Source: an uncultured Alphaproteobacteria bacterium
Lineage (GTDB): Bacteria; Pseudomonadota; Alphaproteobacteria; RF32; CAG-239
Direction of reading: 5' to 3'
DNA: 64,000 nt
NCBI GenBank assembly: GCA_944392315.1
Contig: CALXWH010000006.1
Span: 1 to 64,000, forward strand
Shown piece after piece: positions 13,040 to 54,727 of this stretch. Below the pieces are notes generated by a model that made no database searches, was not told the origin of the DNA, and worked only from the letters and a program-made list of their open reading frames with translations. Position 1 is the stretch's first letter. Each line of letters begins with the position of its first letter. The position numbers and the translations under genes are program-made.

Positions 13040-14455
13040 ATGCTTAAGGTTGTCCCATATCTTGCTGATTTTTGCAAAAAAATTGATATCAAAAAGCTGA
13101 AATTCAGTTTGTGTTTTCGGCTCATGTTCTTTTTTGTGGTGATATCTGCCATTGTGTGGGGAATTGCCGGCTATATTTCTTATAAGGAAACTAGAGAAAG
13201 TATTGATGAGTTTTTTGATACCTATCAACTTGCACTCAGCCGTCAGTTAGCGGCGGCAGACTGGAGCGCTGTTTCGCAAAATACGCAAGATGTGACGGAT
13301 AAACTGATTAAAAATGTTGAAAATGCCGATGACGATGATGATGCTATCGGGTTTGCTATTTTTACGCGTGACGGCAAAATGATTTTTCATGACGATGAAA
13401 ATGGCAAATATTTTCCGCTCAATACCACCGCTTTCGGTACATTTGTTAATGAACGTTTGGAGCGTGAAGGAGATAAATGGCGGTTGCTTCGTTTATATTC
13501 GGCAGACGGACGTTATATTATTACCGTCGGGCAAGAACTGGAGTATCGTGAAGACTTAGCTATGGATATTGTTGAGGAGTTTTTGACTCCGTGGCTCTTT
13601 GGCTTTATCTTTTTGTTACTTTCTATTGCCGGACTGACTTATTTTGAATTTAGACCGCTTAAAAAGTTGGCGGCCTCTATCAATAATCGTTCGGCAGATG
13701 ATTTGGCTCCGGTTAATATGGATAACGCGCCGATTGAAGTGAAACCGCTTATTGGCGCTATGAACCATATGTTTCAGAAAATTACAAATCTGCTTAAACG
13801 TGAACGCAGCTTTATTTCTGATTCTGCTCATGAACTCCGCACACCTTTGACCGCGCTTAAAATACAACTTGAAATTGCGCAAATGGCCGATGACGATGCA
13901 GCCATGCGTCAGCAGGCTTTGGATAAACTGCAAAAGGGTATTGAGCGTGCCGAACGTTTGGTTGAGCAACTCTTGGCGCTTTCTCGTTTGGAAGCGGACA
14001 ACGGGCACTATGATAATGTTGAGATATTGAACTGGAATGAAATCTGCTCGCACTTGATTGATGAATATAGATTGATGGTCAAAAATAAGACCATTATCCT
14101 TGAAGCTGATGATAAAGCTCAGCCGCCCTTTAGCACCGGAAACCATATTTTGACGGCTTTGCTTATTCGCAATCTTTTGGATAATGCCGTTAAATATAGT
14201 CCTGAAAACGCACGTATCACTCTTAAAATTGCTGATGGGAAATTTACGGTCACCAATTCCGATACCGTAGTTAATGAAAATATTTTACAAAGACTGACTG
14301 AGCGTTTCTTCCGTCCGGCCGGGCAAAAAGAAACCGGCAGCGGATTGGGGTTGGCTATTACGGAAAGGATTGCCGAACTCTACCATTGTCAATTAGTGTT
14401 TGCCAACACGGATGAAGGCTTTGCCGTTACCATTCAGGCAAAAGAGGAAATTTAA
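13040..14455 (+). CDS. Sensor histidine kinase (QseC/PmrB-like)
   Basis: The 471-residue membrane kinase has a TM segment at about 26-46, a periplasmic sensor of about 130 residues unusually rich in Asp (DADDDDD region), and a second TM at about 184-203. The dimerisation domain carries H264 in SAHELRTPL. The HATPase domain has NLLDNAVKY (N box) and GSGLGLAI (G box). It pairs with the preceding response regulator; the GGAGG ribosome binding site lies inside that gene's end. Its stop codon overlaps the convergent porin's stop by 4 nt. The signal sensed is unknown. Confidence 0.93.
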   Translation: MLKVVPYLADFCKKIDIKKLKFSLCFRLMFFFVVISAIVWGIAGYISYKETRESIDEFFDTYQLALSRQLAAADWSAVSQNTQDVTDKLIKNVENADDDDDAIGFAIFTRDGKMIFHDDENGKYFPLNTTAFGTFVNERLEREGDKWRLLRLYSADGRYIITVGQELEYREDLAMDIVEEFLTPWLFGFIFLLLSIAGLTYFEFRPLKKLAASINNRSADDLAPVNMDNAPIEVKPLIGAMNHMFQKITNLLKRERSFISDSAHELRTPLTALKIQLEIAQMADDDAAMRQQALDKLQKGIERAERLVEQLLALSRLEADNGHYDNVEILNWNEICSHLIDEYRLMVKNKTIILEADDKAQPPFSTGNHILTALLIRNLLDNAVKYSPENARITLKIADGKFTVTNSDTVVNENILQRLTERFFRPAGQKETGSGLGLAITERIAELYHCQLVFANTDEGFAVTIQAKEEI

Positions 14456-15582
14456 TATTTAAGGGCTATGCCGGTAATGATGGCGTAGCCTTTATTATTG
14501 TTATTGCTTGCTCGTGCATAACCTTTTGAATTGCGATAGGCATTTACCCAATACAATTCTACATATTTATTTAGCTGATACTTATTGGACTGTACCCATA
14601 TATCATCCCGATGACGCGTATTTTCTGCTTCCGTATGCAAATACGCTAAATTGCTCTCAAACTTTCCAAAATCGTAGCCGATACTGAAATCCCACGCATG
14701 ACCTTCTCTATAATTATCAAAATATGCCGGCAGATGCTCGTTTTGAGCTGTTGTTGATATCGGATTTTTATGACTGTCTATCCACGATTTTTTATAGCCA
14801 CCGGATATCTTTAAGCCTTTATAAATCCAACGCATGCCGCCGGACCATACGTTATCGGTGCGATTATACAGCCCATAGCCTGTTGACGTGTATAATTCTC
14901 CATACGGCAAATTCCAATGATTTTGCATAGAGGCGGTATATCCGTCTTGTGTTGTTTCATAATTGGTATAACGGCTCGTCATACCGCGTCTGGAGGCGTT
15001 ATCCGGCGTATAACTGAAACCTAATATGGTATTGCCCATTTCCGGCGTAAAGTAACTTAACTTGAAAGCACGTCCATCATCTAAAATGGTTGTTGATTTG
15101 GGTGTGGCAAATTTTGTTTTTTTCTGGCCGTTGGACCAGTTTGCGCTGCTTAAAAAGTATGAAATATTACTATCTTGTATGCCAACCCAGGTGATGTCTT
15201 GTGCACCAACGTGCATAATTCTTGCGGCATTATAAGTATAACCTACCGTCAACTGCCCTTTTTTTTCATCAAAAACGTGTGCGTAGGGGTAAAACCGCCA
15301 ATCCCCTTGCTCATAGTCCTTATCATGTTGACGCATGACGATGGTATAATCTGCATTTAACCCTATTTTTGTTTGTTGTGAGAACGGATAGTATCCGCTT
15401 ATTTTGCCATCTGCCCGAAAAACGAGGCGATTGGCCATATTATCCAAATTATTATCTTCTTTTGTTTCCATTACACCGTAGTATATGCCGGCAATGCCTG
15501 ACTGTGACAGAGTCCAATCTTTTGCTTCTGAAACTTCTGCCGCAATCGTCATCAGCCCTAGCGGTATTAATATTCTTTTCAT
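14452..15582 (-). CDS. Outer-membrane porin
   Basis: The 376-residue protein has a short signal peptide ending near SEA-KDW. The rest is alternating amphipathic strands rich in Tyr, Trp, Asn and Gly, ending in the aromatic residue expected of a barrel (GIALKY). That pattern indicates a general-diffusion-type porin of the outer membrane. The frame is open further upstream, but ATG 15582 has GAGAGGA in place and a proper signal sequence directly after it. The exact porin family and selectivity cannot be told from sequence reading alone. Confidence 0.8.
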   Translation of the reverse strand: MKRILIPLGLMTIAAEVSEAKDWTLSQSGIAGIYYGVMETKEDNNLDNMANRLVFRADGKISGYYPFSQQTKIGLNADYTIVMRQHDKDYEQGDWRFYPYAHVFDEKKGQLTVGYTYNAARIMHVGAQDITWVGIQDSNISYFLSSANWSNGQKKTKFATPKSTTILDDGRAFKLSYFTPEMGNTILGFSYTPDNASRRGMTSRYTNYETTQDGYTASMQNHWNLPYGELYTSTGYGLYNRTDNVWSGGMRWIYKGLKISGGYKKSWIDSHKNPISTTAQNEHLPAYFDNYREGHAWDFSIGYDFGKFESNLAYLHTEAENTRHRDDIWVQSNKYQLNKYVELYWVNAYRNSKGYARASNNNNKGYAIITGIALKY

Positions 15583-15674
15583 TAGTCCTCTCTTGTGTTT
15601 AGTATATTGTACAGAATACTTTATTTTTTGCAATCTGTTTTTATGGCTTGACTTTTTTATCTTTTCCTGTATCT

Positions 15675-15802
15675 TATAATTGTTCTTGGTGCTTGCAGGG
15701 CTTATAAGCACGGAACTTTGGTAAACTGAGCCGGTTTAATGAGATTTGATTTGAGTACTCTTTATGAGTTTCATTGGCGGCTCCTGATAAGGAGTTTTTT
15801 TT
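15675..15802 (+). promoter_or_regulatory. Promoter and structured leader 1 of the NAD operon (candidate riboswitch)
   Basis: A perfect TATAAT (15675-15680) places the transcript start near 15687. Hairpin P1, GTGCTT/AAGCAC (15689-15694 with 15706-15711), carries an 11-nt loop GCAGGGCTTAT. Loop bases GGCTTA (15699-15704) can pair with TGAGCC (15727-15732; one G-U) as a pseudoknot. The overlapping GAGCCG (15728-15733) can instead pair with CGGCTC (15778-15783). That pairing excludes the hairpin CTCC/GGAG (15781-15784 with 15791-15794), which hides the ribosome binding site and is followed by T8 and the ATG. This is the layout of a riboswitch expression platform. The ligand is unknown. Confidence 0.55.
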
Positions 15803-16345
15803 ATGACTGAATATAAATACAAACATGGTTTGAGCATTATGCGGGCGCAACCTTTTCATATCGGTCATCAAAAATTGATTGATAAGATGCTTAAGGAATG
15901 CGAACATGTTACTATTGTTCTCGGTTCTATCCAAGAACAGGGAACAGCCAGAAATCCTCTTAACTATACCACACGCAAAAAGATGATTCAAAATATCTAT
16001 CGGGCAAAACCTGAATATGACAGGTTGAAAATCGTTGGTATTTTTGATATTAACAATCCGGCAGAATGGGGCGAATATGTCCTTGATTTTATTCAAGAGA
16101 GCTTCCCTAACCTCCCGAAACCCGATGTTTATTATGCGGGGTCTTCTTATGATGCGCATTGGTTTAGAGAGTGTTTTCAAAATATTGAATTGGTTGATCG
16201 TACGGATCCTAGTTTTCCGTTTGTTACCGGTACGATGATACGCGATATGATTAAATTTGGCGATGGACGATGGAAAAACTTTGTCGCTCCCGAAAATCAC
16301 CATATCATTGAAGAATACTTTAACAAGAAAAAAGGTATTATTTAA
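15803..16345 (+). CDS. Nicotinamide/nicotinate mononucleotide adenylyltransferase
   Basis: The 180-residue enzyme belongs to the nucleotidyltransferase alpha/beta phosphodiesterase superfamily. The ATP motif RAQPFHIGH is at residues 14-22 and the second motif, TGTMIRDMIKFGDGRW, is near the C-terminus. It resembles the NadM-type NMN adenylyltransferase domain and would make NAD+ or its deamido form from mononucleotide and ATP. Nicotinamidase and NAD synthetase genes follow, supporting a pyridine-nucleotide role. The AAGGAG ribosome binding site lies in a potential hairpin of the leader. Preference for NMN or NaMN is not decidable here. Confidence 0.88.
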   Translation: MTEYKYKHGLSIMRAQPFHIGHQKLIDKMLKECEHVTIVLGSIQEQGTARNPLNYTTRKKMIQNIYRAKPEYDRLKIVGIFDINNPAEWGEYVLDFIQESFPNLPKPDVYYAGSSYDAHWFRECFQNIELVDRTDPSFPFVTGTMIRDMIKFGDGRWKNFVAPENHHIIEEYFNKKKGII

Positions 16346-16359
16346 TTTTTTTAGCCTAT

Positions 16360-16431
16360 CATCTGCGTCTTCTGAAGGGCTTATAGAAGACAGATGGTTT
16401 AACCCAAATAAGCCTGAAGGGATTTTTTCTT
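16360..16431 (+). promoter_or_regulatory. Structured leader 2 of the NAD operon (same loop motif as leader 1)
   Basis: A hairpin of GTCTTCT/AGAAGAC (16367-16373 with 16385-16391), extended by CATCT/AGATG (16360-16364 with 16392-16396), carries the 11-nt loop GAAGGGCTTAT. Ten of its 11 bases match the loop of leader 1, while the stem differs completely. Loop GGCTTAT (16378-16384) is fully complementary to ATAAGCC (16408-16414). The resulting pseudoknot would end 1 nt before the GAAGGG ribosome binding site of the next gene, so it could control translation. Confidence 0.6.
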
Positions 16432-17055
16432 ATGAATAACCGTATTTTAATGCGAATTGATTTTCAAAACGATTTCGTTCATTCACACGGTGCGCTTACG
16501 GTCAATGCACCGGAATTGATTGAGAAACATCAGAAATTTGCCGATAATCTGTTCTTGGATAGTTTTGATAAAATTATTGATACTTATGATACGCATTTTG
16601 CCGAAACTTATCCGCATACCATTGAGGCACAAAGCTTTCCTCTGCATTGTGTTTTCGGGTCTTGGGGATGGCAGCAGGCGGCTCCGTTTAAGCCTGAGCT
16701 TAATGTGGTTAAGATGTATAAATCAACAACGAATATTTGGAACGAGGTTCGCTCTTATCAAGATTTGGCGCAAGATTGGAGGGATAAAAACGTTTATCTT
16801 TGCGGGGTTTTAAGCGATATTTGTGTGCAACAAGCCATGAACGGATTGCTTAAAAAAGGGGCTAATGTTACTGTCATTGAAGATTTATGTTTGGGTAAAG
16901 ACAAACAAATTAAAGATATTCTGCAAGATGATGTTTATGTTCCTTTTATTAAACAAGGAAAGTTGAAAACGATTACCACCGCGCAGTTCTTTCGTTCTTC
17001 CCTTTTAGAAAAGAAAATGCAGCATCGGTTTATCCGTAGCACTTTTGAAAAATAA
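16432..17055 (+). CDS. pncA: Nicotinamidase (isochorismatase-like cysteine hydrolase)
   Basis: The 207-residue hydrolase converts nicotinamide to nicotinate and ammonia. The cysteine-hydrolase triad is visible as D10 (IDFQNDF), a lysine at 94 or 97 (VVKMYK) and C131 (CGVLSDIC). The metal-binding residues of nicotinamidases are suggested by D53 and H55 (DTH) and H72 in PLHCVFGSWG. It lies between the adenylyltransferase and NAD synthetase genes, which supports nicotinamidase over other isochorismatase-like hydrolases. Its C-terminal 30 residues are an unusual basic extension. Confidence 0.82.
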   Translation: MNNRILMRIDFQNDFVHSHGALTVNAPELIEKHQKFADNLFLDSFDKIIDTYDTHFAETYPHTIEAQSFPLHCVFGSWGWQQAAPFKPELNVVKMYKSTTNIWNEVRSYQDLAQDWRDKNVYLCGVLSDICVQQAMNGLLKKGANVTVIEDLCLGKDKQIKDILQDDVYVPFIKQGKLKTITTAQFFRSSLLEKKMQHRFIRSTFEK

Positions 17056-17075
17056 AAAAGAGCCTGTTTATTCAC

Positions 17076-17110
17076 CTTTTAGGAGCCATGCTCCGCGTCA
17101 CTTTTAGGAG
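17076..17110 (+). promoter_or_regulatory. Leader 3 of the NAD operon with duplicated Shine-Dalgarno
   Basis: CTTTTAGGAG occurs twice (17076-17085 and 17101-17110). Between the copies is GCTCC (17090-17094). It can form a tight hairpin with the first GGAGC (17082-17086) or, through CTCC, pair with the second GGAG, which is the ribosome binding site of nadE. The two pairings are exclusive, so a translational switch is possible. It lacks the loop motif of leaders 1 and 2. Confidence 0.4.
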
Positions 17111-17115
17111 ATTTA

Positions 17116-17898
17116 ATGATGGAAAAGATTTGGAAAAAACTTCAGCAAGGTTTGATTGATTATTGTCAAAAATATAGATTTCAACAAGTTATTTTAGGCC
17201 TTTCGGGCGGACTTGATTCAGCTATTACGGCCGTTTTGGCGGCAGATGCTTTGGGCGGGCAAAATGTAACGGCGCTTATGATGAAGACGCGCTATACTTC
17301 TGATTTAAGCCTTAATATTGCAAAACGTATAGCCGAACTCAATCATCTTCATTTTCAAGAACTTGATATTGAACCGCTGGTGCAAGAGCATACTAATTTT
17401 CTTAAAAATGCGTTTCATGAAAATGTTAATGGACTTACTTTAGAAAACTTGCAAGCACGAATTCGCGGGCAAATTCTCATGGCTTATTCTAACCAACAAG
17501 GTGGCTTGGTTTTGGCTTGCGGCAATAAATCTGAAGCTTTAACCGGATATTGCACGCTTTATGGTGATACTTGCGGCGGTTTAATGCCTATCGGGAATTT
17601 GTATAAAAGTACGATTTTTGAACTGGCGAAATGGCGTAACAAGCAAAATATTGTCCTTCCCGAAGAGGTTATTTCGCGCGCGCCGTCTGCCGAATTGGCT
17701 GAAGGGCAAAAAGATGAAAATACACTTCCGCCTTATGGGGTTTTGGATGCTATACTCAAATTGATGGTAGATGAAAACAAATCTGCGGAAGAAATTTGTC
17801 ATCAAGGTTTTGATTTGTCTTTGGTTCAACGCGTGCAAAAGTTGGTTTGCAATTCTTCGTTCAAGCGCAAGCAAATGGCTGAAATCTTACCTTTGTAA
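17116..17898 (+). CDS. nadE: NAD(+) synthetase, ammonia-dependent type
   Basis: The enzyme amidates nicotinate adenine dinucleotide to NAD+ with ATP. The 260-residue protein has the PP-loop SGGLDS at residues 30-35, the family segments NLQARIRGQ and GNKSEALTGYCTLYGD, and the PSAEL motif. There is no N-terminal nitrilase domain, so it would use ammonia rather than glutamine. The released ammonia of the neighbouring nicotinamidase is chemically compatible. Start ATG 17116 (or 17119) follows TTAGGAG. It is last in the operon and faces the CMD operon across a shared terminator. Confidence 0.95.
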   Translation: MMEKIWKKLQQGLIDYCQKYRFQQVILGLSGGLDSAITAVLAADALGGQNVTALMMKTRYTSDLSLNIAKRIAELNHLHFQELDIEPLVQEHTNFLKNAFHENVNGLTLENLQARIRGQILMAYSNQQGGLVLACGNKSEALTGYCTLYGDTCGGLMPIGNLYKSTIFELAKWRNKQNIVLPEEVISRAPSAELAEGQKDENTLPPYGVLDAILKLMVDENKSAEEICHQGFDLSLVQRVQKLVCNSSFKRKQMAEILPL

Positions 17899-38219: not shown

Positions 38220-38328
38220 AAAAAAAATTGCGCCAGTGTGCGAACCCTCGCTGACTGACGGCACTCCGTAGAGTGTTATTTTTTACTTAAATCTGCCTAG
38301 ATACTAGGGATTTTTTCCTAAGAGTCAA
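38220..38328 (-). promoter_or_regulatory. ffh promoter with attenuator-like leader
   Basis: On the minus strand, TTGACT (38323-38328) and TAGTAT (38301-38306) are 16 bp apart, placing the start near 38294. The leader forms a small CACTC/GAGTG hairpin (38263-38276). A larger hairpin follows, GCCGTCAGT against ACTGGCGC (38254-38262 with 38230-38237), enclosing GCGA/TCGC and ending in eight T. This is a terminator-like element about 30 nt before ffh, so transcription attenuation of the cluster, or a short leader RNA, is suggested. Confidence 0.6.
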
Positions 38329-54538: not shown

Positions 54539-54727
54539 ATTTTATTTTTCCTTATTTTCCGGTTAAACCTCCGCAGAATATCGGCCCAGAATATTCCGGA
54601 CACCGGAGCGTGTAGCTTAGCTTAATTGCTTAAGTCTTGCCGACGCTTTCTCTGCGTGTGAATTACATAAAAAACAGCACCATTGCTGCTTTTCGCGTGT
54701 CTTATATCTTATTTTTATTTATTTTGC
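54539..54727 (-). promoter_or_regulatory. rpsB-tsf promoter and structured leader
   Basis: On the minus strand, TTGCAA is 17 bp upstream of TATAAG (54701-54706), giving a leader of about 155 nt. Close to its start CAGCA/TGCTG (54675-54688), followed by T6, looks like an attenuator. Nearer the gene, CTCCG/CGGAG (54604-54608 with 54569-54573) encloses the self-complementary CCGGAATATTCTGG. ACACGC occurs three times in the leader. Feedback by S2 is plausible from knowledge of other rpsB leaders. Confidence 0.6.

Follow-up and report, generated by a model that had tools for sequence, protein, structure and literature searches.

A kissing-loop RNA motif in the leaders of two NAD salvage genes of uncultured Alphaproteobacteria, a candidate for a new riboswitch class

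The first two genes of an NAD salvage operon in an uncultured alphaproteobacterium are each preceded by a leader with a conserved RNA structure, in which a hairpin loop has kissing complementarity to a segment further downstream and, by calculation, alternative folds are linked to the Shine-Dalgarno sequence (SD). We consider it likely, with a probability of about three in four, that one cis-acting translational switch is present here in two copies: a riboswitch candidate of a new class that responds to an NAD-pathway metabolite, most likely NAD+ or NMN. There are no ligand binding or expression data, and both the ligand and the switching are inferred.

An NAD operon with two structured leaders

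The window, meaning the whole stretch of 64,000 nucleotides that was analysed, is part of a genome of 27 contigs and 1.56 Mb (completeness 96.7%), whose named relatives are uncultured Alphaproteobacteria, many of them of animal gut and rumen origin. The operon runs from an NMN/NaMN adenylyltransferase-like gene (NMNAT) through a nicotinamidase-like gene to NAD synthase, the roles that a sequence-only reading of this DNA had assigned to them. The PDB relatives of the first product are NMN adenylyltransferases and those of the second are nicotinamidases/isochorismatases, with NCBIfam scores below the curated cut-offs for both proteins; these assignments are made at the level of the fold, with conserved motifs, and the substrate details are inferred. 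Models for NadD and NadA found no match in the source genome in searches that do match in control genomes, and no NAPRTase N-terminal domain was found there either (an assembly gap is possible), while nicotinamidase and NAD synthase are present. In the absence of NadD and NadA matches the operon is thus central to NAD supply, and with NAPRTase also unmatched the organism appears to depend on salvage for its NAD. Relatives carry nicotinate phosphoribosyltransferase (PncB) in the equivalent operon (locus L080). The features of the operon and its leaders are as follows.

15648-15675, + strand: sigma-70-like promoter, TTGACT-16-TATCTT (consensus scan, 9/12 matches, weak alone)
15682-15716, + strand: leader 1 hairpin P1 (double changes in relatives)
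15695-15705, + strand: leader 1 conserved loop GCAGGGCTTAT, (nearly) invariant in 49 distinct leader-1 sequences
15723-15737, + strand: leader 1 hairpin P2, AAAC 15723-15726 with GTTT 15734-15737 (alignment of relatives)
15728-15783, + strand: leader 1 anti-sequestor, GAGCC 15728-15732 with GGCTC 15779-15783 (predicted by folding)
15779-15796, + strand: leader 1 SD-sequestering hairpin GGCTCCT/AGGAGTT, followed by a T run (terminator-like match; folding)
15803-16345, + strand: NMNAT-like gene, 180 aa (gene search, PDB relatives)
16360-16396, + strand: leader 2 hairpin P1 (double changes at 9 of 12 pairs; pairing in 99% of cells)
16374-16384, + strand: leader 2 conserved loop GAAGGGCTTAT (alignment of relatives)
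16401-16422, + strand: leader 2 P2, CCC 16403-16405 with GGG 16419-16421 of the SD (pairing kept in relatives)
16432-17055, + strand: nicotinamidase-like gene, 207 aa, isochorismatase fold, DxH..H metal motif and Cys (gene search, PDB relatives)
17116-17898, + strand: NAD synthase (nadE), third gene of the operon, without a motif copy upstream

The window has a few other features. The gap between nicotinamidase and NAD synthase (17056-17115) contains, before the start codon, a small hairpin, GGAGC-CAT-GCTCC, with two occurrences of the string TTTTAGGAG around it; this differs from the motif studied here. A divergent porin-like gene (Porin_4, 14452-15582, - strand) adjoins the operon, and two Rfam matches exceed their gathering scores, the rpsB RNA motif (54544-54660, - strand) and the ffh RNA motif (38223-38266, - strand).

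In leader 1, the 5-bp outer stem of P1 (GTTCT 15682-15686 with GGAAC 15712-15716) is set apart from the inner stem (GTGCTT 15689-15694 with AAGCAC 15706-15711) by a bulge, TG 15687-15688. Transcription may start near 15682, the first base of this hairpin, an inference that rests on weak consensus evidence. The kissing strand of the loop is GGCTTA 15699-15704 and its partner, TGAGCC 15727-15732, lies within the loop of P2, so that the contact is loop-loop; the P2 stem AAAC/GUUU is paired in 88.6% of cells in the alignment of relatives. The SD is AAGGAG 15789-15794. P1 of leader 2 has the outer stem CATCTG/CAGATG, the bulge CG 16366-16367 and the inner stem TCTTCT/AGAAGA, with GGCTTAT 16378-16384 as kissing strand. 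Its P2, which involves the SD AAGGGA 16417-16422, encloses the kissing partner ATAAGCC 16408-16414.

Both loops and both complementary segments had been placed at these positions by the sequence-only reading. Its stems are present as well, but it missed the outer stem of leader 1 and, in both hairpins, the 2-nt bulge with G as its second base. The pseudoknot that it proposed holds as a pairing of loop and partner with compensatory changes, but leader 1 is a kissing loop and not a simple H-type fold. In leader 2, where it placed the pseudoknot next to the SD, the strand around the partner is in fact paired with the SD.

Conservation, covariation and distribution of the motif

The consensus consists of P1, with an outer stem of 5-6 bp, a 2-nt 5' bulge NG, an inner stem of about 6 bp and the 11-nt loop GMAGGGCUUAU, followed by the 3' strands of the inner and outer stems, a short linker and a segment complementary to GGCUU(AU). 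The motif is about 55 nt long, and its two copies lie about 680 bp apart. At orthologous loci, the loop is found before NMNAT in nearly every close relative and before nicotinamidase in most, with stem letters that vary freely. The loop string alone is not rare, with 4 matches in the source genome versus 5 for the reversed control, and the matches at C7:29893 and C9:11662, which lack the hairpin and the partner, are not motif copies. The motif as a structure is rare, as only leaders 1 and 2 match a covariance model in the source genome (E = 3e-11 and 5e-11). Chance occurrence is rejected on this ground, and because substitutions in the stems compensate each other whereas loop and partner are kept. 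This is the selection on structure that had been proposed from the two copies alone; relatives lacking the loop or its complement would have refuted the pseudoknot switch proposed with it, and the relatives keep both.

All 11 pairs of P1 in leader 1 show double changes in relatives. Parsimony on a tree of 49 NMNAT proteins counts 40 double pair-to-pair changes at these pairs, with 15 of 99 changes leading to a non-pair. By this evidence, which takes relatedness into account and rests on sequence comparison, the P1 hairpin is selected as RNA structure. When leaders 1 and 2 are aligned jointly (alignment A3), both-sided changes are found at 12 of 12 P1 pairs, and 96.8% of cells are paired. With the most divergent members added (alignment A4), the P1 covariation score is 0.583; shuffles give 0.260 +/- 0.018, and a slid 3' strand gives no more than 0.20. 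The kissing helix varies less in leader 1, where five of its six pairs were invariant in the first sequence set. Judged from aligned sequences, the contact between loop and partner is nonetheless one that covaries in divergent members: GGCUU/GAGCC is replaced by GGCUA/UAGCC and GGCCU/AGGCC (L086) in genome G183, GGCCUAU/AUAGGCC (L048) and GGCCUA/UAGGCC (L028) also occur, and before an F420-ligase-like gene GACAGU/ACUGUC stands against GGCAGU/ACUGCC. The AGGG core of the loop is nearly constant while the pairing part changes, indicating that a candidate ligand site can be separated from the pairing part. The unpaired bases of loop and bulge are strongly conserved across proteins down to 63% identity.

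A covariance model, R1, finds 94 copies in 54 of the 152 genomes of the family of the source genome. These are exactly the 54 genomes with an NMNAT gene at least 68% identical to that of the window, with none in the other 98. Family genomes with only an NMNAT paralogue at 55-62% identity have no motif copy by the model, and these paralogues were rejected as motif carriers after those of their leaders that were inspected showed no motif. An order-level search yielded no further copies, and a phylum sample of 398 genomes added none; the leader-1 pattern was not found in viral contigs. Among 385 genomes sampled from the class, G183, which belongs to another alphaproteobacterial family, was the only convincing addition, with two copies before the same two genes. 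A further match in this sample (G412, E = 0.0017, GC-rich) is attributed to chance, being without motif features and gone with model R2.

NMNAT and nicotinamidase are the genes under the motif; their operons also contain NAD synthase and in some cases nicotinate phosphoribosyltransferase. In one genome (G095, L077:1191-2015, - strand), the operon partner after the motif-bearing NMNAT is a different one, a fusion of an inorganic pyrophosphatase-like domain with an AAA/zeta-toxin-like kinase domain. The leader of a paralogue, NMNAT2 (47-53% identity), is a variant: its loop, RAGGGCWAU, is 9 nt long, its second hairpin lies around UUGGCC, and its kiss is at best a 3-bp GGC/GCC core. The NMNAT2 operon of some relatives (L067:1645-4534, - strand; L068:1842-4756, - strand) also contains an F420_ligase-family gene (product of about 396 aa), which has a third leader subtype, and further on a PnuC-family transporter. 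The F420_ligase-family protein has no PDB relative by sequence, and its role in NAD metabolism is unknown.

A range this narrow, one family and one genome of another, would also suit a lineage-specific leader bound by protein, as would two copies in one operon: a translational repressor, perhaps an NAD enzyme, could bind the kissing hairpins and block the ribosome site without direct binding of a small molecule. Such RNA-protein autoregulation is unlikely in our judgement, although it has to be kept in mind. A shared metabolite fits better with the motif's occurrence before the F420-ligase-like gene and the divergent NMNAT2 in a separate PnuC operon, and the clustering of conserved unpaired bases in the bulge and the closed loop is, by inference, aptamer-like.

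Predicted control of the Shine-Dalgarno sequence

Sequence comparison shows that the loop of the bulged hairpin pairs with the downstream segment into a loop-loop (kissing) structure. If the motif is a metabolite-sensing switch, the ligand would stabilise this kiss from a site formed by the conserved bases that pairing does not need, the bulge NG and the loop GMAG. That the ligand is a metabolite, that it is NAD+ or, as second choice, NMN, which way the response runs and that these bulge and loop bases form a pocket are all inferences. The SD-containing stem of leader 2 encloses the kissed segment, so that the kiss would hide the SD directly. The 3-bp pairing with the SD is kept in 39 of 41 leader-2-type sequences, F420-ligase leaders included: CCC faces GGG in 19 of 20, and CCU faces AGG. 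In leader 1 the kiss would occupy GAGCC and take it from GGCTC, leaving GGCTCC free to sequester the SD AAGGAG.

When GAGCC of leader 1 is held unpaired in folding, as in the kissed state, GCUCC pairs with GGAG of the SD and the sequestering hairpin forms in 47 of 48 leaders. Without constraint, the anti-sequestor GAGCC-GGCUC is the minimum-energy fold in 35 of the 48 orthologous leaders, and its mean advantage over the kissed-state fold is 2.2 kcal/mol, with the kissing energy not included; it is not clearly favoured in the NMNAT2 variant and in leader 1 of G183. Different as they are, both platforms are predicted to give the same sign, OFF when the kiss forms, and ample ligand would turn translation OFF at both copies, a cistron-by-cistron feedback on NAD salvage. 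Of the defining features of a riboswitch, conserved structured leaders with covarying stems and functionally related genes are present; folds that exclude one another and so open or close the SD or a terminator are present by prediction only, and specific binding of a ligand by the RNA itself is an inference.

The 13 of 48 leaders in which the anti-sequestor is not the favoured fold leave some room for a constitutive structure, an RNA thermometer or a small-RNA target that does no more than adjust translation or the stability of the mRNA. We hold this to be very unlikely, as neither the conserved unpaired bases of loop and bulge nor the mutually exclusive folds would be expected of a plain stem. 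It is also conceivable that the same RNA and ligand logic acts in leader 1 mainly by transcription attenuation, with GGCTCCT/AGGAGTT and the T run as an intrinsic terminator and GAGCC-GGCTC as antiterminator; a terminator scan scores the SD hairpin, and the run of 7-8 T after it is kept in nearly all relatives' leaders. This version appears improbable, given that the SD lies within the stem and the start codon directly after the T run, so that control of translation suffices, and that leader 2, which has no T-run hairpin, would have to be translational in any case. A translational switch in both leaders remains the preferred reading.

Relation to known riboswitches

The leaders had not been recognised as a known NAD+ riboswitch from their sequence, and they match no riboswitch in Rfam (4227 models; E up to 10 in the window and up to 5 in 8 related loci); known Rfam families are rejected as the identity of the motif. 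Whether the NAD+-I and NAD+-II models are among the 4227 was not separately confirmed. A literature search found no third NAD-related class, with subscription papers and preprints outside its scope, and a prior description is not excluded. The motif looks like a new structural class of riboswitch candidate, previously undescribed, with binding inferred. That it is a third NAD-pathway class, structurally unrelated to the others, is probable but held with some reserve: a ligand-stabilised kissing loop that stands on its own in front of single cistrons within one operon, together with a diverged subtype on the NMNAT2/F420-ligase-like/PnuC operon, whose ligand may be the same nucleotide or one related to it.

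Few coenzymes are as old or as abundant as NAD+, but reports of riboswitches for it are limited to two classes, both rare (PMC10043782). If the proposal is true, a third architecture in animal-gut Alphaproteobacteria would mean that RNA sensing of NAD arose repeatedly; it would also provide a compact kissing-loop aptamer for structural work, and connect the salvage of vitamin B3 by uncultured gut bacteria with a control circuit that can be tested. As the motif is so short, binding can be tested directly with synthetic RNA, without a cultured host.

The motif departs from both validated NAD+ classes in host, gene, architecture and arrangement (PMC7749635, PMC10043782). NAD+-I consists of two similar units, the second of which overlaps a ribosome binding site (PMC10043782), and is limited to Acidobacteria (PMC7749635). 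The present motif resembles it in its NAD genes and two similar units, but whereas the two aptamers of NAD+-I jointly recognise NAD+, each copy here stands before its own cistron with its own platform. Provided that its model is among those searched, membership in NAD+-I (the nadA motif) is rejected for want of an Rfam model match; on the same condition membership in NAD+-II (the pnuC motif) is rejected too, there being no Rfam match and a different host and gene. NAD+-II is a small pseudoknotted leader for which an OFF mechanism that conceals the ribosome binding site has been proposed; all 43 distinct sequences reported lie upstream of pnuC in Streptococcus, and covariation supports P1a only (PMC7749635). 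The present motif is like it in being a small pseudoknotted leader of NAD-related genes with a proposed OFF mechanism of the same kind, and unlike it in belonging to Alphaproteobacteria and to NMNAT and pncA genes, with a loop that contacts a second hairpin. The pntA motif is a weak candidate, suggested to sense some form of NAD, with the SD within a stem, and is known from 11 sequences in Streptomyces only, upstream of a transhydrogenase gene (PMC11109978); it shares the suggested NAD sensing and the SD in a stem, but differs in gene and host. In guanidine-II, the kissing of two hairpin loops is linked to the ligand (PMC9094411). Hairpin loops kiss in the present motif too, with the link to a ligand inferred. 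The loops, genes and organisms of guanidine-II are different, and the loops and platforms of the present motif are asymmetric.
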